From the NCBI GenBank assembly GCA_029251005.1, contig JAQXEE010000135.1:1-33950 (forward strand): DNA of 33,950 nucleotides, read 5' to 3'. The notes below the pieces were generated by a model. That model worked only from the letters and a program-made list of their open reading frames with translations. It was not told the origin of the DNA and did no database searches. Position 1 is the first letter of the stretch. The number at the start of each line of letters is the position of its first letter. Both the position numbers and the translations under genes were made by a program. The DNA is from Flavobacteriales bacterium (lineage in GTDB: Bacteria > Bacteroidota > Bacteroidia > Flavobacteriales_C > GCA-002722245). Positions 18,636 to 31,379 of the stretch are shown one piece after another.

Positions 18636-19663
18636 ATGAAAAAGTTTTTGAAGTTTTTGAGTGCTATTGGGCTAGTCTTATCAATGGCCGTTGTTTATAT
18701 TTATTTCGAGGTTTTTGAAAAAGATATTGAAACAGGAGATGAAAAATCTGTTTTGTTTTTTATTAAATCATCTGATGGTGTTGAAGATGTAGTTTCAAAT
18801 TTAGACTCTTTGGGAATTGCTTCTAAAAGTGAATTTGGATGGTTAGCCGAATTAAGACATTTATCAGGAAATAATATATACCCAGGAAGGTACACATTGA
18901 AATCAACGATGACTTACAGTGATTTGGTGATTTATTTACGATCAGGTCAAATAGATGAAATAACGATTACCTTCAATAATGTTAGAACTTTAGAACTTTA
19001 GATCAGTTAGCGAAAAAAGTTTCAAGTCAAATAGAAGCTTCAGAAGCATCTATTCTAAACGAATTAAAAGAATCGGAAAAGTATGGCTATGATAAATCAA
19101 CTTTCTTAGCGGTATTTATTCCGAATACTTACAAAATGTACTGGAATACTTCTGGAGAGCAATTTGTAAAAAGGATGGTAGCTGAACACAAACGTTTTTG
19201 GAATGAATCACGTTTGGCAAAGGCTAAGAAAATGAATTTAACACCAGTTGAAGTAAGTACTTTAGCTTCTATTGTTCAGAGTGAACAAAACCTTCATAAA
19301 GATGAGTGGCCTATTATTGCTGGCCTTTATTTTAATAGATTACAGAAAGGAATAAAACTACAGTCTGACCCTACAGTTGTTTACGCTTGGGGTGATTTCA
19401 CATTAAAAAGAATTTATTACAAACATCTGAAAATAGATTCAAAATACAACACCTATAAGTATATAGGCCTGCCTCCAGGACCTATTCGAGTTCCAGCAAG
19501 TGGTGTATTAGATGCTGTTTTAGGATATCAAAAGCACAAGTATATATTTATGTGTGCTAATCCCGAGTTTTCAGGTAAACATGCCTTTGCGAGAACAAAT
19601 GCAGAGCATGAAAAAAACGCGCGAAAATATCGAGCGTTTTTAAAGAGAAATAATATTCATTAA
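18636..19663 (+). pseudogene. mltG: Endolytic transglycosylase MltG, broken by an 8-bp tandem duplication
   Basis: MltG cleaves nascent peptidoglycan strands at the inner membrane. The first part (18636-19001) gives an N-terminal membrane helix (about 6-24) and a LysM-like domain, but ends at a TAG at 18999. The second part continues in another frame from about 19002 and runs to 19663. It holds the lytic domain, including LASIVQSEQ, with the expected catalytic glutamate in SEQ, then FNRLQKGIKLQSDPTVVYAW and GLPPGPIRVPASG. The break is caused by GAACTTTA repeated exactly (18985-18992 and 18993-19000). Removing one copy restores NVRTLDQLAKKV and an uninterrupted 339-residue protein, the size of E. 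coli MltG (340). It may be a true mutation, a slippable switch or an assembly error. Confidence 0.9.
18982..19002 (+). repeat. 8-bp tandem duplication inside mltG
   Basis: The unit GAACTTTA occurs twice in tandem (18985-18992, 18993-19000), and the period-8 pattern runs from 18982 to 19002, about 2.6 units. The extra copy shifts the frame and creates the in-frame TAG at 18999-19001. Confidence 0.95.
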
Positions 19664-21496: not shown

Positions 21497-21844
21497 ATGA
21501 AGCATTTATTGAATTTAAGTTTAGCCTTATCTGTTGTTTTAATTGCTGCTTGTACTAAAGATGAAGTTACAGAGGATCAGCCTAATAAAGACTGCTTAAC
21601 AGCATATACTTATGATGCCGATATTTCAATGATCATAAATGACAATTGTGTTTCTTGTCACTCGGGAGAACAGCCACCCAGGTTAACCAATTACTCTGAA
21701 GTTATTAATTCCATTGAGCATGTGAAGGCAGAAGCAATCACAGAAAAAACAATGCCTCAAATCGATAATTTACCAGCACCATTAAGTGATTCAGATATAG
21801 AGAAGTTAAATTGTTGGATCAATCAAAATACACCTGAAAATTGA
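21497..21844 (+). CDS. Small lipoprotein with a single CxxCH haem-binding motif
   Basis: A 115-residue protein with a lipobox, LIAAC (Cys19), so it is likely a membrane-anchored lipoprotein. The mature part has one haem c motif, CVSCH (51-55), in the form DNCVSCHSG, and a possible distal ligand in EKTMPQ (Met86). It ends SDSDIEKLNCWINQ, where the pattern of a final helix with LxxWI is common in small cytochrome c domains of Bacteroidota and Planctomycetota. It probably carries electrons outside the inner membrane, but its partners are unknown. It begins one base after cmk. A second c-type cytochrome gene lies about 6 kb downstream. Confidence 0.82.
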   Translation: MKHLLNLSLALSVVLIAACTKDEVTEDQPNKDCLTAYTYDADISMIINDNCVSCHSGEQPPRLTNYSEVINSIEHVKAEAITEKTMPQIDNLPAPLSDSDIEKLNCWINQNTPEN

Positions 21845-21896: not shown

Positions 21897-24800
21897 ATGC
21901 TAAAAACGGCAATTTCAGTAGGCGTTAATATGGTTAAACGTTTGATCGCAAAAATATTATTGTGTGTATCTATTTTAACAGGACATTTAGGTGCTCAAAC
22001 CTTGCCCAATGAGATAATCCCAGTTTCCAAGGAGGTAAAGCCCTCTATAGGTTTGGGTGTTGGTTTTTTGAATTTTTATGGTGATGTTAATAGTATAGGT
22101 AACCAAAACTCATTAATTAATCAATTTGCTTACGAAGTTCATGTTGCTCGGAAAATTAACGATTACTCTGATTTAGGATTTAGCTTTTTAACAGGTACGA
22201 TTTTAGGAAATGAAAAAAGTGCTGATCGAAATTTAAATTTCAAAACTCAAATATATTCTTTAGGGTTTTATGCAACCTATAATTTAGATTATTTTCTTAA
22301 TTTCTCAAAAGTATTAAATCCCTACGTTACTATTGGTTTTGAAAGCTTCGAGTATAATAATAAAGGAGATTTAGTAGATGCAAACGGAGCTCCCTATCAT
22401 TATTGGGATGATGGGACTATAAGAAGCTTAGATCAAAGTTCACCTTTGGCTTATCAGGCGTCATTAATGCAAAGAGATTACCGATATGAAACTGATTTAC
22501 GATCAGAAAATTTAGACGGTTTTGGTAAATATGCTCAGTTAGCAATTGGAATCCCAGTTGGTTTAGGCTTTAACTTTAATGTATCAGATCGTCTTTCTTT
22601 TAAATTTAATACAACATTCCATTATACTTTTACTGATTTAATTGATAACCTAAGTAAAGACGGTAATGGTAATCGAAAAGGGAATGAGATGAATGATTAT
22701 TTTACCTATAATTCGGTTTCTGTTCATTATGACTTACTTAGTTCTCCACCAAAAACAAATCCTGAAGCTTTTTATTTCCCAGATTACTTTATATTAGATA
22801 TGGCTGATCAAGATGGCGATGGCGTTGTTGATGGATTAGATATTTGTCCTTTTACACCAAAAGGTATTAAGGTTGACGATGAAGGTTGTCCACTTGATGA
22901 TGATAAAGATGGTGTCCCAAATTATTTAGACAGTGAATCCGCAACGGTAGATTCTTCATTCGTTAGTGCAAAAGGTAAAGCATTAACAGATGCTGATTAT
23001 TATAATCAATACCTGAGGTATATAGATTCTGCGCCAATTCCATTAGAGATTTTATATAAAATCGCAGGAGAACCAGAGAAGACGGCTCAGTACAGGATAT
23101 TATTAGGAGAGTTTTCGGGTAGATTACCAGAAGGTTTGGCAAGGAAGTTTTTAGAAGAAGGAGATGTTATTGGTACTTTAAATACGGATAACAACACCGC
23201 TTATTTAACCCAAAAATATTTGTCGCTAGATGATGCAAAACAAAGAAAGTCTGAACTACTAAGCAAAGGTTTCCCTCAAGCAACAATAGTCATATGGGAA
23301 AGTAGCGAGTATTTTACACTAAAAGAATGGGAAGAAAGGAGTAAAAAAGATCTTAAAGGTAGATTTAAAGAGCATTATCAAAATAAAGAACAGTTAGAAG
23401 GATTATATGCTGTTAAATTAGGAGAGACTGAAGCTGATGCGCAAACAGTTGATAAAACAAAATTTTTTGAATATGAAGATGTAGTTGTTTTGGATGGAGA
23501 TACGAATAAAAAGAATTATGTTATCGGCCCATTTATTGATAAGGTAGGGGCTAAGCAATTATTAGCTGACGTAGATCGTAAGAAATTCCCAAATGCTGAA
23601 ATCGTTAAAGTTAGAAATGGAAAGGCGATTGAAATTGGTATAGAGGTTTCTGATGTTGTTCCTAATTTATCACCCGAGGGGGCTAAATCTTGGAATGAAG
23701 ACCGGAAAAAACCAGTTCAAGAAAAAGAAAACATACTTGCAAATCTAAATGGGAATTTAGTGATTGACTTTGGAACAGCGAATGATCCAAAAACAAAAGC
23801 TGTGTTAAATAAAATAAAGTCAGAGAAAGTTGTTGTAGAGGTTAAAGATGAAAACGGTGATGTTAGAATCATTACAAAAAATTCGCAATCAGAAAGTTTT
23901 ATCCGAAAAGAAGTAGAGAGGTTAAATACCCAAAATATTCCAGCAAAAGTAGTTAGAGTTGAGGATGGTGTTTTAAAACCTGTAGATGACGAGGATTTAA
24001 GAGAGGCTGAAAATAAAAATATTGTATCTAACTCTTTAATTAAAGAACAGTACGAGAAAAAAGAAAACTTTTTAAGTAAACTAGAAGATGCGATTGTAAT
24101 AGATTTTGGAAAAGTAAGTAATCTAAAAACGTTAGCAATTAAAGAGAAGATAAAGGCAAAACAAGAAGTTGTTGAGGTCACAACTGCTGACGGTAATACT
24201 AAATTAATCACAAAAAATCCTCAAAGTGAAAGTCAGACTGAAAAAGTATTAATAGAATTAAAATCTGATAATATAGAGGCTACTGCGGCAGTTGTAAAAA
24301 ACGGTAATTTGATACCTGTTAATTTAGGAAAAGATTTAGTTGAACAAAAAAAGTCGCTTGATCAATTAGAAAATAATGTAGCTGTTAACTTTGACAAAAT
24401 CGAGACCCAAGCAGAAAAAGAGTCGTTTGAAAATTTCACATCAAGTGATGATTTCACTGAAGTAATTGATGGTGAAGGGAATAAGTGGTTAGTGTCTAAG
24501 AATAATGATGGTAATAAGCAAGCTGTTAATGAAGTAAATGAATTAGCTAGCGAAAATGTCAAGATCGGTAAAGTTTTAAATGGTAAAGTCATACCATCTA
24601 AAAGTCAACCGACTAAAAATAATTTATCTGATGGTATTTTATCAAAATTAGAGAACGCTTTTGTGATTGATTTTGGTAAAATAGATGATCCTAAAACTCA
24701 AGCAGCGAAGAAGAAAATCAAGTCTGTTCAGGATGTTGTTGAAGTGACAACTAAAACTGGTGAATCAAAGTTAATTTCCAAAAACCCTCAAAGTAATACT

Positions 24801-26822
24801 GAAGTTGAAAAAGTATTAGGCGAATTTAATGCTGAAAATATAAAAGCTAAAGTAGCTCTAGTCAAAAATGGTGTTTTAATACCTGTTAAGATAGGTAAAG
24901 AGCTTGCTCAGCAAAAAGAAGAATTGAAACAGTTGGATAATAACGTGGCTGTTGCTTACGGTGAATTAGAAACTACAGAGGAAAAAGCTTCTTATGAAAA
25001 GTTAAAACAATCAGGTTACTTTATGGAAGTTCTTGGTAAATATGGGGAAAAGTCGTTAGTTGCCAAAAATGAAAAAGGTAATGAGATTGCTCTTTCTGAA
25101 ATTGAAAAACTTCAGACTTTAAATTTAAGTGTAAAAGAAGCTAAGGTTATAGAAGGTGATGTTATACCAACAAAGACAAGTAAGCTTATAAAAAAACCTG
25201 AAGAATTAATTACAAAAACTGATATAGAAACAATAGCAGTTCCTAGCAAAGCTCAAGAAGAAGTTTTTGTAACCCCTGTTTTAGAGAAACATGAAGATAA
25301 ATTTCTTGTTAAGTTAGGGACGATTAATGAGAGTACGCCATTAATAGATGTTAATAAATTACTGAATGCTCCAAACACTTTTCAGGTTAAAAAAAGTGAT
25401 GGGACAATTGATGTTTTATCTGACAAAAGTAGCAAATTAGAAGAACCCTCTCATATTAATAAGGCTGCTTTTAAAAAGCAAGGGTTTGAAAATGCTAAAG
25501 TTGCATTTGTTCGCGAAGGTAAAGTTACTGTTTTGAAAAAGGAAAACTTAGATGGGAAGTTCTCTTTAAGTTTAGGTTCTTTTAAAACTGACGTTCCAAG
25601 TGAAGAAATTAATAAAATTGCCAGTATCCCTGATGTCGAGAGTATGGAGACTTTTAATCCAAACTTAACAACTTATGCTGTTGGTAATTTTAATTCTGCA
25701 AATGAAGCTCAGGAAAGAATGGAAGAGTTAATCGTAAAAGGATTTAAACCAGAGCTAATTAAATATGAAGATGGTAAAGTGAAAGTTATTGATGTGGTTT
25801 CGGTTTTCGATAAATTAACGCTTCAGCGCTTAAGTGTATTGAGTGATGAAACAAAACTAATCAAAACAGATGAGGTTGTTTTTAGGGTTCAACTAGGAGC
25901 GTATAGAGGTAAAATTAAAGAGAGCGTTTTTAAAGGTGTTCAAACACTTTCATTTCCAACTTCTGGTGGAATTACTAAATACGTAACAGGATCATTTGGC
26001 ACTTATCAGCAAGCATATATTCATAAGCTTACAATGAAAAGCATGGGGTTTGCTGGAGCCTTTGTAGTTGCCTACAAAGATGGTAAAAGAATAAAAGTAA
26101 CCGATTTGGTTAACCAAGAAAAATTTGAACAAGTTAAAAAGGTAGCTTCTCCAATAGAGCAGGAATATCGAAAAGTAGAAGAGGAAGTAATTCAAACTAA
26201 AGCAAACCTAAATTCCGAAACAAAAACTCCAAAGGTAAGTTACAGAGTTCAAGTTGGTGCTTATAAAGTTGGAGAAGAACCAACTGAATTATCACAATTC
26301 CCTAATATTGAAATGGAAATTTATGGACAGTATAAAAGATATTTGTCTGGTGATTTCCTTACATATTCTCAAGCGAATAATCATAAGTCAGAAGTTAAAA
26401 GTAGTGGGTTTGATGGCGCTTTTGTAGTAGCTTACAGTAATGGACAGAGAGTTTCGGCAGCTGGAGAAAATCCGAATGTGATTTCTCAAAATGATTTAAG
26501 CTCTGTTGCTTCATCTACAACAACTCCTTCTAAATACCAAAAAAGCAAGGTGTTGATTATGATCCAGGTTGGTTTATATAGAGGAGAACTTCCTGAAGAC
26601 TTAAAAGGTAAATTCCAAAGCTTACCAAATTTAACCAAACAAGTAACCACTCATGGTGTAATTAGATACATGACGGGTAATTTTAAAAACCTTTCTGAAG
26701 CTGCTGCTTTTAAAGAAGAATTAGTAAAGAAAGGTTTTGACGGTGCATTCTTAGTTGCCTATTATGATAACGAAAGGATTAAAGTTGAAGAAGCTGTTGA
26801 AATATTGAAGGAAGCTAGATAG
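21897..26822 (+). CDS. Giant outer-membrane protein: beta-barrel, TSP3 Ca-binding stretch and about 12 SPOR-like modules
   Basis: The 1641-residue product begins with a signal peptide. M12 (ATG at 21930, MVKRLIAKILLCVSILTG) may be the true start. Residues about 45-290 look like an 8-strand-type barrel. Residues 302-345 are acidic, thrombospondin type-3-like (DQDGDGVVDGLDICP, DDDKDGVPNYLD). The rest is a chain of roughly 75-90-residue modules at about 398-470, 501-580, 617-697, 728-808, 822-902, 917-998, 1012-1093, 1133-1214, 1220-1300, 1326-1402, 1446-1520 and 1552-1630. The last three are classic SPOR (YRVQVGAYK, GAFVVAYSNGQRV), which binds glycan strands lacking stem peptides. The middle five are divergent and duplicated. 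It seems to replace an OmpA-type anchor by a SPOR array, but no function is established. Its stop abuts the DUF1853 gene directly. Confidence 0.85.
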   Translation: MLKTAISVGVNMVKRLIAKILLCVSILTGHLGAQTLPNEIIPVSKEVKPSIGLGVGFLNFYGDVNSIGNQNSLINQFAYEVHVARKINDYSDLGFSFLTGTILGNEKSADRNLNFKTQIYSLGFYATYNLDYFLNFSKVLNPYVTIGFESFEYNNKGDLVDANGAPYHYWDDGTIRSLDQSSPLAYQASLMQRDYRYETDLRSENLDGFGKYAQLAIGIPVGLGFNFNVSDRLSFKFNTTFHYTFTDLIDNLSKDGNGNRKGNEMNDYFTYNSVSVHYDLLSSPPKTNPEAFYFPDYFILDMADQDGDGVVDGLDICPFTPKGIKVDDEGCPLDDDKDGVPNYLDSESATVDSSFVSAKGKALTDADYYNQYLRYIDSAPIPLEILYKIAGEPEKTAQYRILLGEFSGRLPEGLARKFLEEGDVIGTLNTDNNTAYLTQKYLSLDDAKQRKSELLSKGFPQATIVIWESSEYFTLKEWEERSKKDLKGRFKEHYQNKEQLEGLYAVKLGETEADAQTVDKTKFFEYEDVVVLDGDTNKKNYVIGPFIDKVGAKQLLADVDRKKFPNAEIVKVRNGKAIEIGIEVSDVVPNLSPEGAKSWNEDRKKPVQEKENILANLNGNLVIDFGTANDPKTKAVLNKIKSEKVVVEVKDENGDVRIITKNSQSESFIRKEVERLNTQNIPAKVVRVEDGVLKPVDDEDLREAENKNIVSNSLIKEQYEKKENFLSKLEDAIVIDFGKVSNLKTLAIKEKIKAKQEVVEVTTADGNTKLITKNPQSESQTEKVLIELKSDNIEATAAVVKNGNLIPVNLGKDLVEQKKSLDQLENNVAVNFDKIETQAEKESFENFTSSDDFTEVIDGEGNKWLVSKNNDGNKQAVNEVNELASENVKIGKVLNGKVIPSKSQPTKNNLSDGILSKLENAFVIDFGKIDDPKTQAAKKKIKSVQDVVEVTTKTGESKLISKNPQSNTEVEKVLGEFNAENIKAKVALVKNGVLIPVKIGKELAQQKEELKQLDNNVAVAYGELETTEEKASYEKLKQSGYFMEVLGKYGEKSLVAKNEKGNEIALSEIEKLQTLNLSVKEAKVIEGDVIPTKTSKLIKKPEELITKTDIETIAVPSKAQEEVFVTPVLEKHEDKFLVKLGTINESTPLIDVNKLLNAPNTFQVKKSDGTIDVLSDKSSKLEEPSHINKAAFKKQGFENAKVAFVREGKVTVLKKENLDGKFSLSLGSFKTDVPSEEINKIASIPDVESMETFNPNLTTYAVGNFNSANEAQERMEELIVKGFKPELIKYEDGKVKVIDVVSVFDKLTLQRLSVLSDETKLIKTDEVVFRVQLGAYRGKIKESVFKGVQTLSFPTSGGITKYVTGSFGTYQQAYIHKLTMKSMGFAGAFVVAYKDGKRIKVTDLVNQEKFEQVKKVASPIEQEYRKVEEEVIQTKANLNSETKTPKVSYRVQVGAYKVGEEPTELSQFPNIEMEIYGQYKRYLSGDFLTYSQANNHKSEVKSSGFDGAFVVAYSNGQRVSAAGENPNVISQNDLSSVASSTTTPSKYQKSKVLIMIQVGLYRGELPEDLKGKFQSLPNLTKQVTTHGVIRYMTGNFKNLSEAAAFKEELVKKGFDGAFLVAYYDNERIKVEEAVEILKEAR
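24078..25175 (+). repeat. Two tandem copies of a ~175-residue double SPOR-like unit
   Basis: Within the giant protein, residues 728-902 (24078-24602) and 917-1093 (24645-25175) match as a unit. Both start KLE(D/N)A(I/F)VIDFGK, share VVEVTT, then KLI(T/S)KNPQS, then VVKNG or LVKNG with LIPV. Both continue into a second, more diverged module containing NNVAV. A single copy of the first half precedes them at residues 617-697 (23745-23987). This is a recent internal duplication relative to the other modules. Confidence 0.7.
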
Positions 26823-27626
26823 TTACCACCACACTACCATTATTTTCTTGAAGTTTTGTTCTTTTGTTTTATGCCAAACAAGAGCTGAAAATTTAGATCT
26901 GAGCTTTTCTTGAATCGTTATTAGGGCTTTTTGTTTCGTTATCCAATTCTGATTGAAAATTGGATCTATATACCAATCTATCTTATCAGGAACGCACCAT
27001 TCTCCAATCCAATTTAAATTTTGAAAGCCCTCTAAGTTTACCCAAGTACCAACTACACATTTTTGGAAATTTTGAGGCAATTGCACAAGTTGATCATGCG
27101 GAATGAATAATTGAGCTTTTAAAAGTAATGAAGGTTTAATTTTATCTGTTTTGATGTTTAACTGTTTAAGCTTTTCAGTTACACTTTTATGTTTTAAAAT
27201 AGGTAATTGATGATTCTTTAGTCTTGACTTTTTAAGGTGTAGAAAGTCTTTTCGATTTGGGCCAATCCATTTACCTACAAAATCAGTATTTAAACTATTG
27301 TCAAAAAGGTAGAATTTATAAGATAATTCTATATGCTGAACACTTTCTGTATTGTTGCTTTTTATTATGTAATCAATTTCGCCTACAGTTAACTTACCTT
27401 CTTGGATTTGAAAGTTAGAAAGTATTAGTTTATAATCAATTGAATTTTTTAGAATTAGTTCAAACAAGAATTCAATTTTCTTACCCAATCTATAAATAGA
27501 CGGAGCTTCCACATCCGCAGGAATGATCGATGAAGTTAATTTGAAATCATTAACTCCTTCAATAATCCCTTTCAATTCAGGCGTATTATTAAAACTTGTA
27601 AGATGTTGTTTGATTGTAAACTCCAC
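26823..27626 (-). CDS. DUF1853-family protein
   Basis: A 267-residue cytoplasmic protein matching the layout of DUF1853: LGKKIEFLFELILKNS near 47-62, then VGEIDYIIK at about 81-89, QHIELSYKFYLFDN at about 97-110, and FVGKWIGPNRKDFLHLKK. The GEIDYII and ELSYKFYL parts recall a PD-(D/E)XK nuclease core (acidic residue, then E-x-K with Glu and Lys in HIELSYKFY), but nuclease activity is inference and the function is unknown. The start is GTG at 27626, which puts the FNNTPEL motif where homologues have it. The stop TAA touches the stop of the SPOR-array gene with no gap, and the 5' end is divergent from the cytochrome gene. Confidence 0.8.
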   Translation of the reverse strand: MEFTIKQHLTSFNNTPELKGIIEGVNDFKLTSSIIPADVEAPSIYRLGKKIEFLFELILKNSIDYKLILSNFQIQEGKLTVGEIDYIIKSNNTESVQHIELSYKFYLFDNSLNTDFVGKWIGPNRKDFLHLKKSRLKNHQLPILKHKSVTEKLKQLNIKTDKIKPSLLLKAQLFIPHDQLVQLPQNFQKCVVGTWVNLEGFQNLNWIGEWCVPDKIDWYIDPIFNQNWITKQKALITIQEKLRSKFSALVWHKTKEQNFKKIMVVWW

Positions 27627-27643: not shown

Positions 27644-27651
27644 TACTTTTG
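27644..27651 (+). promoter_or_regulatory. -7 box placing the cytochrome start near the transcript start
   Basis: TACTTTTG is an exact TAnnTTTG match. It lies five bases before the GTG at 27657, so a transcript from here would be leaderless or nearly so. No well-spaced -33 TTG is present, so the assignment is tentative. Confidence 0.4.
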
Positions 27652-27656
27652 CACTT

Positions 27657-30116
27657 GTGAAAGTTAATTTAACAAAATATTTATTACTAGTAACTGGAGC
27701 TTTGTTTTTTATTGCAACAGGCTTTTTGGATAAAGACTCTGTAGAGCAAGTTCCAAAATTTACGCAGTCGAAACACGACTTGTCGGATAATAGCTGCGTT
27801 AGTTGTCACAAAGGCTTAGAAGCAATTCGAGATGTACACAGTGGCATGATGCAAGCTATTTTAGAAGTGGCTGATGAAGCAGGTATTAAAGGTAATGATT
27901 GTGTTGTATGTCATGGAGGAAATCCTAAATCATTTAGCGAAAAAGAATCTCATAAGGGAACAGTTGCTTATTTTAAAAATAATCCTGGACCAAAAAACTT
28001 TTACCCAGATCCTGGTTCACCTTGGATAAATAAAAATACTTGTGGTACTTGTCATGAAGAACAAGTAAAAACACAGTTTACGTCACTGATGTTCACAGAG
28101 GCTGGGAAAATTCAAGGCTCCCTTTGGGGGTTTGGGGGTTTAAATGGCTACAAACATGACGTTGGGAATTTTAATGTAACATCAAATAAATTACACGAAA
28201 CCTTAGGTACCGAAAAATACAGTGCCTATATGCAGGAAATAGAGGCGGAAGAAGGTCAAGTGTTTCCAAAAACAATGGTTGAGTTACCACCAGCACCAAC
28301 TGCAGACGAAGTTGAACTGAATCCTCAATTAGCAGTTTATACTTATTTAAGACAGGAGTGTCAACGTTGTCATACCGGTTCAAAAGGAAGAGAGAAAAGA
28401 GGAGATTACCGTGGAATGGGATGCTCTTCTTGCCACATTCCTTATTCTAATGAAGGATATTACGAAGGTGGGGATTCTTTACTTCAAGGGAAAAAAGGAA
28501 AACCGTTAGTTCATTCCATTCAATCAACACGTGAATGTAAAGTTGAAGTGCACGGAAAAAAATATTCTGGAATTCCAGTAGAAACGTGTACAACTTGTCA
28601 TGATAGAGGTAAAAGAATTGGTACTTCATATCAAGGTTTAATGGAAACCGCTTATGGATCTCCATTTATGGGAGATGGTGGTAAACAAGAAAAATTACAC
28701 ACTAAGAACTATTTACATTTACATGCCGATATTCATTTAGATAAAGGAATGTTATGTCAGGATTGCCATACTTCTTTAGATGTTCATAGTGATGGAAGAT
28801 TAGCCGGTACAACGCTAGCTCCAGTTGAGATAGAATGTCAAGATTGTCATGGAACTCCACAAAAATATCCATGGGAATTACCACTAGGTTATGGAGATGA
28901 AGTGGCCTCAGAAGTTCCTGCAACTGGAGAAGAAAGAGGTGTTGCAAAAGAAAAATTAGAGCACACGAAACAAGGAACAAATTATCATCCTCAAGATGGT
29001 TTTTTACTATCCGCAAGAGGTAATCCTATAGAGAATGCGGTAAGAAAAGGGAATGAAGTAATCTTACATACGGCAGGAGGTAAAGATCTTGAATTAAAAC
29101 CATTAAAAAAGATTTATGAAGATGGTGAGTTAAGTGAGGAAGGTGAGATTGCAATGGTTAATGTTAGTAAACATATTGATCAGTTGGAGTGTTATTCTTG
29201 TCACGCAGACTGGGCTCCGCAATGTTATGGTTGTCACATCAAGATTGATTATTCAACAGGTGAACAGCATCCCGATTGGCTAGCAATGTCGAAAGATCAT
29301 GATTCTTCTGGTTTAACAGCAGAAGCTAGAGGGGAGTATGAAAAACACCTTATTGATGGGAAGGTAACTGAGCAAAGAAGTTATTTAAGATGGGAGAATC
29401 CTCCATTAGTAATTAACGGAGAACATCGTGTTTCTCCTGCAATTCCTGGTTGCCAAACAACTGTTACCGTAATCGGTAAAAATGGAAACGCGCTATTGTC
29501 AAATCATATTTTCAAAATCCCGAATGTTGAAGGAGCAGATACATCAGGACAATTAGCAATTGACATTTCCCCTGTTCAGCCACACACTACTTCAAAAAAA
29601 TCAAGAGCTTGCGAAAGTTGTCATACCAATCCACAATCAATGGGGTATGGTATCGACGGAGGAACTACTTTTGCAAATCCAAGTCAAGCTTATGTTGTTG
29701 ATTTAACTTCTCCAGATGGGGCGATATTATCAGATAGCCATAAGGTTCAAATTAATGCTATTCCAAATTTGGAGGTAGACTGGAGTCGGTTTGTCGATGA
29801 AAACGGAGTTCAAAAACAAACGGTAGGACATCACTTTTCTGGTTCTAGGCCCTTGAATAATGAAGAGAGAGCTAATTTAGATCGAAGAGGAGTCTGTGCA
29901 AGTTGTCACCAATCTTTACCTGAAGAGAATTTAGCGGTGAGTTTATTGTACCATATGAAAGAGGTTTCTGGTAAGAAGTATGATAAAGATGAACACAATT
30001 CATTGATCTATAAAATTCTTAATGTATCGGCTTGGGTTCAGGCTCTTGCTATTTTGGGAGTGTTTATTTTTATGACTCTAATTATTCGAAAACTGCGTCA
30101 AAAGCTTAGTAAATAA
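27657..30116 (+). CDS. Dodecahaem (12 x CxxCH) c-type cytochrome with N- and C-terminal hydrophobic helices
   Basis: With the GTG at 27657 the protein has 819 residues; ATG at 27603 would add 18 but overlaps the DUF1853 start. A hydrophobic helix near residues 8-24 (KYLLLVTGALFFIATGF) exports or anchors it. The C-terminus has another helix at about 793-810, then a basic tail, so the haem part should face the periplasm. CxxCH motifs begin at about 47, 82, 129, 235, 256, 311, 367, 394, 512, 523, 652 and 747, all canonical. The many additional histidines would allow bis-His ligation. A CKVEVH sequence near 294 is not a haem site. Multi-haem cytochromes of this size carry electrons in respiratory chains, but I cannot assign the reaction. 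A multi-pass membrane protein gene starts 3 bp later, a probable partner. Confidence 0.85.
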   Translation: MKVNLTKYLLLVTGALFFIATGFLDKDSVEQVPKFTQSKHDLSDNSCVSCHKGLEAIRDVHSGMMQAILEVADEAGIKGNDCVVCHGGNPKSFSEKESHKGTVAYFKNNPGPKNFYPDPGSPWINKNTCGTCHEEQVKTQFTSLMFTEAGKIQGSLWGFGGLNGYKHDVGNFNVTSNKLHETLGTEKYSAYMQEIEAEEGQVFPKTMVELPPAPTADEVELNPQLAVYTYLRQECQRCHTGSKGREKRGDYRGMGCSSCHIPYSNEGYYEGGDSLLQGKKGKPLVHSIQSTRECKVEVHGKKYSGIPVETCTTCHDRGKRIGTSYQGLMETAYGSPFMGDGGKQEKLHTKNYLHLHADIHLDKGMLCQDCHTSLDVHSDGRLAGTTLAPVEIECQDCHGTPQKYPWELPLGYGDEVASEVPATGEERGVAKEKLEHTKQGTNYHPQDGFLLSARGNPIENAVRKGNEVILHTAGGKDLELKPLKKIYEDGELSEEGEIAMVNVSKHIDQLECYSCHADWAPQCYGCHIKIDYSTGEQHPDWLAMSKDHDSSGLTAEARGEYEKHLIDGKVTEQRSYLRWENPPLVINGEHRVSPAIPGCQTTVTVIGKNGNALLSNHIFKIPNVEGADTSGQLAIDISPVQPHTTSKKSRACESCHTNPQSMGYGIDGGTTFANPSQAYVVDLTSPDGAILSDSHKVQINAIPNLEVDWSRFVDENGVQKQTVGHHFSGSRPLNNEERANLDRRGVCASCHQSLPEENLAVSLLYHMKEVSGKKYDKDEHNSLIYKILNVSAWVQALAILGVFIFMTLIIRKLRQKLSK

Positions 30117-30119
30117 ATT

Positions 30120-30935
30120 ATGTCAAATACAATAGATGATAAAAATAAAGAAACCGAAATTACTGATTTCTCTTTTCCAATAAACAAGTTTATATCCAAG
30201 GGGTGGGAATTAGGACTGAAGATTTTAGGATGGTATGTTTTATATATGACTTTAGCTATGACTGCCAGTAGTTTATTAAAAAGTCTTCCGTATGTGGGAT
30301 CATTGATTAATACTTTAGTGATTGCTCCGGTTTTAGCTAGTGGTACTGTATTCTTTATCCATCATCGATACACCACAAACCGAAGTGATTTCGGATTGAT
30401 TTTTTTAGGGTTTAAAAAGAATTTATTGCAAATAATTCTATTAAATCTAATTTTAGTTATTGGATGCCTAATAATTTACTTGCCTTTAATTTTAGAGATT
30501 TATAATTCAGTTGATCTTTCCGATTTCACAAAAATAGCAAATGAGAAAAACCCCGAAGCTTTAATGCCCTTGGTAAAGGATTTGTTTAAAGATATCGGTA
30601 GTTGGGTAAGAACTGGTTTTTTCTGTTCTTTTGGAATATTATTCCTTATGACTTTTACGGTTTTCACTAGTTTTTTAGTTGTGTTAGAAAACTACACTGC
30701 CGTTAAAGCTATCTCAGTCAGCTTTAAAATTGTAAAAAAGAAATTTATTAAAATATTATGGTTTTTAATCCTATTAGGGTTGATTAACCTATTGGGGGTT
30801 TTGTGTTTGATAATTGGTTTGTTTATTACTGTTCCAATAAGTTTTGCTGCTGTTTACATAGCTTATATTAGTGTTTTTAAACCTAATTTGGAAATAGAAG
30901 ATGATGTTAAGGATAAAGATGTTTTAGATGCCTGA
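30120..30935 (+). CDS. Multi-pass membrane protein paired with the cytochrome gene
   Basis: This 271-residue inner-membrane protein has a polar N-terminus (about 30 residues) followed by hydrophobic helices at about 32-52, 62-81, 103-126, 166-189 and 209-254 (one or two). A soluble loop at about 127-165 (SVDLSDFTKIANEKNPEALM) lies between, and the tail is acidic (EIEDDVKDKD). The pattern resembles YciC/DUF975-like uncharacterised membrane proteins; the closest family is uncertain. It starts 3 bp after the cytochrome stop, so the pair is one transcript. It has no conspicuous paired histidines that would mark a haem b or quinol-oxidising subunit. A role in anchoring or quinone access for the cytochrome is only a guess. 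Confidence 0.75.
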   Translation: MSNTIDDKNKETEITDFSFPINKFISKGWELGLKILGWYVLYMTLAMTASSLLKSLPYVGSLINTLVIAPVLASGTVFFIHHRYTTNRSDFGLIFLGFKKNLLQIILLNLILVIGCLIIYLPLILEIYNSVDLSDFTKIANEKNPEALMPLVKDLFKDIGSWVRTGFFCSFGILFLMTFTVFTSFLVVLENYTAVKAISVSFKIVKKKFIKILWFLILLGLINLLGVLCLIIGLFITVPISFAAVYIAYISVFKPNLEIEDDVKDKDVLDA

Positions 30936-31022: not shown

Positions 31023-31379
31023 ATGAATTGGTATTTAGAGGTTTTAAAAAAATTCGCTGTTTTTAATGGTAGAGCAAGAAGAAAAGAATATTGGATGTTT
31101 ATACTATTCAATACAATCTTTTCCATAGTGTTTTCTTTTGTTGATACGCTATTAATTGGTAGTGAGATAACATCAAATCTTTATTCTTTAGTAGTATTGG
31201 TGCCAAGTATAGCTGTCGGTATTAGAAGAATGCATGATGTGGGTAAAAGTGGATGGTTTATTTTAATTCCAATTTATAACTTAATCTTAGCTATACGAGA
31301 AGGAGATAAAGGAGAGAATGAATATGGTCAAGATCCAAAGGTTGGAACAGTTCTAAATAATGATATTTTAGACGTGTGA
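31023..31379 (+). CDS. DUF805 family small membrane protein
   Basis: A 118-residue protein with the DUF805 pattern: an N-terminal MNWYLEVLKKFAVFNGRARR, then KEYWMFILFNTIFSIVFS beginning the first helix (about 24-43). A second helix is at about 55-67, and VGIRRMHDVGKSGWFILIPI (about 65-84) leads into a last helix, ending with a polar GENEYGQDP tail. Members are small integral membrane proteins of unknown function, often near stress or envelope genes. It has its own -7-like box and ends at a strong palindromic terminator. Confidence 0.9.
   Translation: MNWYLEVLKKFAVFNGRARRKEYWMFILFNTIFSIVFSFVDTLLIGSEITSNLYSLVVLVPSIAVGIRRMHDVGKSGWFILIPIYNLILAIREGDKGENEYGQDPKVGTVLNNDILDV

Follow-up and report, generated by a model that had tools for sequence, protein, structure and literature searches.

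In this study, we have analysed a stretch of 33,950 nucleotides from a Flavobacteriales bacterium (contig JAQXEE010000135.1; the whole stretch is called the window here), and we describe one of its genes, which encodes a c-type cytochrome with twelve haem motifs. By alignment and phylogeny, this protein falls within the ExtM superfamily, in a distinct clade that is still uncharacterised. The clade is what is new here; ExtM-type dodecahaem cytochromes are known already, so this is not a new kind of system. We put the chance at a little better than even that the cytochrome is a stand-alone, inner-membrane-anchored periplasmic dodecahaem oxidoreductase, a role that we favour, from its sequence features, over pure electron transfer. 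The multi-pass membrane protein encoded directly downstream is, judging from related genomes, an incidental neighbour.

The open reading frame (ORF) ending at 30116 holds exactly 12 CxxCH motifs in a single frame. Since the six frames of the remaining window contain only three scattered ones (6953, 9759 and 21647), twelve in one ORF of this 34 kb window cannot be put down to chance. An earlier reading of the DNA made from the letters alone (the sequence-only reading) had described an 819-residue protein with twelve canonical motifs and hydrophobic helices at both ends. The exact motif count in 27657-30116 bears out the first point, and the second agrees with hydropathy, which gives one helix at either end, and with the AlphaFold2 model, which places them at residues 2-22 and 777-818; the model is a confident one (predicted local distance difference test 84.7, predicted template modelling score 0.82). 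As called mechanically, the ORF begins at ATG 27603. GTG 27657 is likely the better start, because two relatives within the genus have GTG and TTG at the aligned codon and because the extra 5' stretch runs into a divergent DUF1853 gene; the longer ATG version was discarded in view of these aligned starts. The features of the gene are given below; the haem motifs were located by the motif count and compared in an alignment of 69 relatives.

27657..30116, + strand: 12-haem c-type cytochrome, 819 residues, GTG start, with an N-terminal hydrophobic helix, 12 CxxCH and a C-terminal transmembrane helix with a K/R-rich tail
27795..27809, + strand: haem motif 1, CVSCH (C47), invariant among the 69 relatives
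27900..27914, + strand: haem motif 2, CVVCH (C82)
28041..28055, + strand: haem motif 3, CGTCH (C129), in place of which 10/12 ExtM-like rows have CX4CH
28359..28373, + strand: haem motif 4, CQRCH (C235)
28422..28436, + strand: haem motif 5, CSSCH (C256)
28587..28601, + strand: haem motif 6, CTTCH (C311)
28755..28769, + strand: haem motif 7, CQDCH (C367)
28785..28787, + strand: His377, candidate axial-ligand switch, invariant in the clade (69/69) and Met in 12/12 ExtM-like rows
28836..28850, + strand: haem motif 8, CQDCH (C394)
29190..29204, + strand: haem motif 9, CYSCH (C512)
29223..29237, + strand: haem motif 10, CYGCH (C523)
29451..29453, + strand: Cys599 (PGCQ), candidate Cys haem ligand or catalytic thiol, the sole invariant non-haem Cys (69/69) and Met in 12/12 ExtM-like rows
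29610..29624, + strand: haem motif 11, CESCH (C652)
29895..29909, + strand: haem motif 12, CASCH (C747)
29985..30110, + strand: C-terminal helix (residues 777-818) including the predicted membrane anchor, with a hydrophobic C-terminus in 63/69 relatives

The nearest NCBIfam profile is that of ExtM (NF040943), which the cytochrome matches over profile positions 15-511 of 599 with an E-value of 1.4e-64. It has the twelve haems of the ExtM equivalog but scores 218.5 bits against a cut-off of 800, and other members of the clade and their near relatives score 214-261 bits. ExtI porin, ExtN, Rieske ExtO and cytochrome b ExtP genes are absent from beside the gene in the window, and none of them recurs in the 80 loci of related cytochromes described next. 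In the wide sense, however, the protein belongs to the ExtM superfamily: in two alignments all 12 of its haem sites are colinear with those of ExtM-like proteins. A scan of GTDB genomes, from which the best 80 of at least 540 relatives were kept, yielded mostly full-length proteins that are 46-95% identical to the window cytochrome over about 800 residues. They come from at least 12 phyla, including Aquificota, Campylobacterota, Planctomycetota, Bacteroidota, Myxococcota, Acidobacteriota and Deinococcota, although many of them are metagenome bins in which single taxon assignments may be wrong. Maximum-likelihood phylogeny gathers 69 rows, that of the window among them, in one clade with a support of 100 in the Shimodaira-Hasegawa-like approximate likelihood ratio test, separated from the ExtM-like rows by long branches that call for caution; the window cytochrome groups with marine Flavobacteriales and then with Hydrogenothermaceae. 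Median identity is 53% inside the clade and 26% to the ExtM-like rows. The literature searched on dodecahaem (12-haem) cytochromes, on ExtM and on multihaem cytochromes of the host groups yielded no account of this clade.

Except where rows are truncated, the 69 sequences of the clade keep all 12 haem motifs, and nine more histidines are conserved as well (H348 in 97%, H780 in 99% and the others in 100%). Cys599 is the only invariant non-haem cysteine. The clade (69 rows) and the ExtM-like proteins (12 rows) are fully split at two positions, where His377 and Cys599 stand against Met, and both columns are well anchored, by VH or VM before [S/G]DG and by PGC or PGM, respectively. A cysteine is also found at position 599 in five of six further rows with 9-13 haems from the Planctomycetota sample, most of them more distant. 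Because the known axial ligands of c-type haems include His, Met and Cys, residues 377 and 599 are likely to occupy axial-ligand positions, as predicted from these alignments. As a lone invariant cysteine in what would be a periplasmic protein, Cys599 can have no conserved intramolecular disulfide, and it is our best candidate either for a reactive site or for the residue that ligates a specialised haem on its distal side; the window cytochrome possibly contains a His/Cys-ligated haem. In a distant relative (L147, genome G591), a frameshift or assembly error has divided the gene between two ORFs that overlap, either of them with six haem motifs.

The C-terminus of the cytochrome is hydrophobic in 63 of the 69 relatives and in 58 of these 63 it carries a K/R tail, which points to the C-terminal helix as an inner-membrane anchor. 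The same feature, typical of such anchors, speaks against a role in electron transfer at the outer membrane or outside the cell, in mineral reduction or oxidation, which we regard as improbable. Such a role could draw on the Pfam matches, which include domains II/IV of MtrC/MtrF, and on the many relatives from metagenome bins of hydrothermal type, as far as their titles tell. Yet a decahaem conduit of the MtrC/MtrF type has ten haems, a lipoprotein nature and an MtrB-type porin, whereas the window protein has twelve haems, matches the domain II/IV model alone (53 bits) and has no porin gene beside it in the window. Furthermore, no porin-cytochrome conduit recurs among the neighbours, and no other large multihaem protein was found in the window's genome.

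Taken as an inner-membrane-anchored oxidoreductase, the single-gene cytochrome would be exported with its haem domain in the periplasm, the C-terminal helix holding it in the inner membrane. Electrons would travel along the haems between the respiratory chain and a soluble substrate, which would react at a specialised haem, Cys599 being the best candidate site. Another explanation, possible but clearly less probable in our judgement, is that the protein transfers electrons without catalysis, as a periplasmic haem wire or capacitor joining a quinol-oxidising complex to several redox partners. This would account for most of the same evidence, and conduction suits twelve closely spaced haems. It also finds an echo in relatives outside the clade: in Geobacter, the relative ExtM lies in a cluster resembling a bc complex (PMC2825233), ExtM being thought to act in this way within its Rieske/cytochrome b cluster, and in the window's phylum ExtM-like proteins occur fused to cytochrome b beside a Rieske gene. 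In the window clade, however, no Rieske or cytochrome b neighbour recurs, and a wire would not need an invariant unpaired cysteine; moreover, the nine extra histidines are fewer than the twelve distal ligands, so that part of the haems may be ligated by other residues or lack a distal ligand.

Several points weigh against a catalytic role. The proximity of Cys599 to a haem iron is a prediction, and one fragmentary relative (L148), the sixth of the further Planctomycetota-sample rows, has Thr at this site. A Foldseek comparison with the PDB retrieved no related solved structure (best E-value 1.2), which leaves no homologue from which a catalytic site could be carried over; this is weak evidence, given that multihaem folds are poor in secondary structure. 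No biochemical or expression account of the clade was found in the literature. Nor did any substrate-linked gene co-occur with the cytochrome in the 35 genomes searched, the counts for NosZ (nitrous oxide reductase, 9/35) and SoxZ (5/35) being too low for a functional link.

As regards the substrate of the proposed oxidoreductase, a sulfur or selenium oxyanion is our guess by analogy, prompted by Cys599 and by the gene settings, ExtM and PsrABC/YeeE, in which distant relatives are found. We would advance only tentatively, as rather unlikely, the fuller picture of a horizontally mobile single gene for a stand-alone periplasmic enzyme. In it, the ligands of one haem would have changed from the His/Met of the ExtM-like relatives to His/Cys, by way of Cys599, and the substrate would be an oxyanion of sulfur or selenium; the enzyme would be present in at least 12 phyla, aerobic marine Flavobacteriales among them. 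The best-known Cys/His haems are those of TsdA and SoxA, two proteins acting on thiosulfate (PMC4423706, PMC6879331, PMC9562282). The likeness to the window cytochrome would lie in a possible Cys ligand on a c-type haem; TsdA and SoxA are dihaem or small proteins, so the analogy is functional at most, and neither is among the Pfam or NCBIfam matches listed for the window cytochrome. What marks the His/Cys-ligated sulfur cytochromes (TsdA, SoxAX, DsrJ) is a cysteine as the distal ligand of a catalytic haem, a part for which the invariant Cys599 is a candidate here. A non-canonical cytochrome c of Myxococcus xanthus reportedly illustrates that Cys/His-type ligation need not mean sulfur chemistry.

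Comparison with the characterised systems sets the protein apart from each of them. ExtM (GSU2935), a 12-haem cytochrome with a reported mass of 68.3 kDa, is part of the Geobacter extHIJKLMNOPQS selenite/tellurite cluster (PMC5877670). The twelve haems and the profile match are shared, but the window protein, at 819 residues, has extra insertions and the C-terminal membrane helix, lacks ext gene neighbours, and differs at residues 377 (His) and 599 (Cys) from the ExtM-like rows of our alignment, a set that leaves out Geobacter ExtM itself, where both are Met. In the window's own phylum, ExtM-like proteins (L035, L036, L038, L041, L047) align with it at the 12 haem positions, with a median identity between the groups of about 26%. 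These have about 630-655 residues, or about 905-930 if fused to cytochrome b, and their genes stand in PsrABC/YeeE-YedE operons with a molybdopterin oxidoreductase, a 4Fe-4S protein, NrfD and YeeE/YedE-type sulfur transporters, none of which accompanies the window gene. Five of the ExtM-like proteins (L037, L043, L044, L045, L046) have 11 CxxCH and one CX4CH motif behind a six-helix cytochrome b-like N-terminal extension; several of these loci also hold an adjoining Rieske gene and PsrABC/YeeE operon (checked with Pfam for L037, L044 and L046). This fusion to a dodecahaem protein may form a quinol-oxidising complex, and its position next to a Rieske gene recalls the Geobacter bc-complex-like cluster (PMC2825233).

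The sequence-only reading had recognised no named respiratory complex and had set the cytochrome apart from ActA and from the octahaem nitrite and tetrathionate reductases, and on all three counts we agree. The protein passes no curated family cut-off for such a complex. ActA of alternative complex III shows weak local similarity (window residues 291-404, E-value about 1e-4), and a PDB sequence search matched only short ActA-like stretches; entries 6lod and 8k9e we take to be the ActA-type multihaem subunit of that complex. ActA has five haems, against twelve here, and is encoded beside ActB in an act operon, which this genome has, complete, on another contig (C109). The octahaem reductases would require eight haems together with homology, and no such family is among the Pfam, NCBIfam or PDB sequence matches.

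From our reading of the translations, the alternative complex III (Act) operon on C109 is followed by oxidase subunits. In the places listed, clusters of CxxCH occur only in the cytochrome gene and in the Act operon, with scattered motifs elsewhere, and the count over the whole genome is barely above control (116 vs 95). A NapC/NirT quinol dehydrogenase was found in none of the five genomes of the genus. The window's genome yielded neither a second large multihaem protein nor a molybdopterin oxidoreductase, canonical or Psr-type, the only match, below the curated cut-off, being an ActB-like protein. With these missing, the cytochrome would most likely exchange electrons with alternative complex III, or with small cytochromes feeding the aa3 oxidase.

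The gene neighbourhood gives no indication of a recurring functional partner in the 80 loci. A downstream ORF is present at 67 loci, on the same strand at 37 and within 100 base pairs (bp) on that strand at 17, and no family recurs directly downstream more than twice. Where a family does recur at a distance of up to five genes, this is mostly explained by synteny of close relatives or by cytochrome c maturation. In some lineages, maturation genes (CcsBA-like, CcmE/CcmF-like) and a tetratricopeptide repeat lipoprotein lie near the 12-haem gene (L061, L112, L116, L117, L120; L124-L133). A 7-haem protein of 816-825 residues is encoded 3' of the 12-haem gene in two Aquificota contigs (L058:11501-13978, L067:4579-7029), and full-length copies were seen in two more genomes reached through Aquificota loci; it was rejected as a partner, being present at full length in just 3 of the 44 genomes searched, all reached via Aquificota loci. 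A clade cytochrome occurs in three of the five genomes of the genus, in none of the other 394 genomes of the phylum sample at a clade-level score (the best other match reaches 87 bits), and above 250 bits in 6 of 199 Planctomycetota genomes. So scattered an occurrence, combined with high identity from phylum to phylum, is what repeated transfer of a self-sufficient unit would produce, and the clade gene may thus have spread as one that works alone.

The adjacent membrane protein deserves separate mention. It and the divergent gene on the other side of the cytochrome are as follows.

30120..30935, + strand: multi-pass membrane protein, 271 residues, BPSS1780-like, adjacent in the window's genome only and not a conserved partner
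26823..27626, - strand: DUF1853 gene, divergent neighbour, overlapping the longer mechanical ORF and outside any haem module

The sequence-only reading had joined the cytochrome and this membrane protein, of unknown family and 3 bp downstream, into one extracytoplasmic electron-transfer module. The arrangement itself is as it had said: the cytochrome gene, stop codon included, runs to 30116 and that of the membrane protein opens with the ATG at 30120, hydropathy gives several hydrophobic helices, and the profile search assigns no Pfam family, the NCBIfam match to NF041043 (BPSS1780 family) remaining below threshold at 63.7 bits vs 90. The 3 bp gap on the same strand, and a multi-pass protein also downstream of the cytochrome in genome G004, could suggest that the cytochrome is half of a two-subunit complex, which we nevertheless hold to be very unlikely. 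G001, of the same genus and with a cytochrome 95% identical, lacks the membrane gene and has DUF805 45 bp after the cytochrome instead; in G004, where the cytochrome is about 80% identical, the membrane protein is just 26% identical and lies 342 bp downstream. Among the ORFs of the 80 loci there is no blastp homologue at an E-value of 1e-3, and the two best homologues elsewhere in the class sit at loci with no CxxCH ORF. Unlinked genes in relatives had been named beforehand as the outcome that would sink the pair, and unlinked they are, which refutes it as a module; in this species by itself, the two genes may still be co-transcribed. A distinct extracytoplasmic haem protein is thus what stands of the proposed module, its pairing with the membrane protein having fallen. 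A suggested link to the mono-haem lipoprotein at 21497-21844 did not hold either, its only homologue among the 80 loci being in the syntenic region of G001.

Some further observations concern the surroundings of the gene. A Bacteroidota-type TAnnTTTG box (TACTTTTG; window 27644-27657) ends 6 bp upstream of the GTG codon, a distance so short that the transcript may have almost no leader; the box is kept in G001 and has one mismatch in G004. Contamination of the contig was dismissed on the grounds that synteny around the cytochrome gene is kept in both genomes. The DUF1853 gene adjoining the cytochrome in G004 (C30:94065-94846, L034) is interrupted by stops, and in G002 and G003 neither DUF1853 nor the cytochrome was seen. 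Several unrelated small membrane proteins (BPSS1780-like, DUF805) have C-terminal tails that resemble one another, with [VI]LD[AV] or a close variant of it, in the window (30120-30935 and 31023-31379) and at L033, L034 and L052. The YceG/MltG gene is split in the window (18636-19001 and 19136-19663, + strand; 121 and 175 residues) and intact in G001 as one 339-residue ORF (L033:12826-13845), by which comparison the split is a frameshift or assembly error. A large PorG-like protein with internal repeats (21897-26822, + strand) has 1641 residues in the window, 1835 in G001 and 1515 in G004.

All together, a strongly conserved haem protein of 800 residues, encoded by a lone gene in Aquificota, Campylobacterota, Planctomycetota and marine Flavobacteriales, is probably sufficient by itself for one redox reaction. 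Since a single gene encodes it and an invariant cysteine occupies what is likely a ligand position, its function is directly testable. If the axial ligands did change in this way, the protein would also show how such changes turn a multihaem protein of the conduit type into an enzyme.

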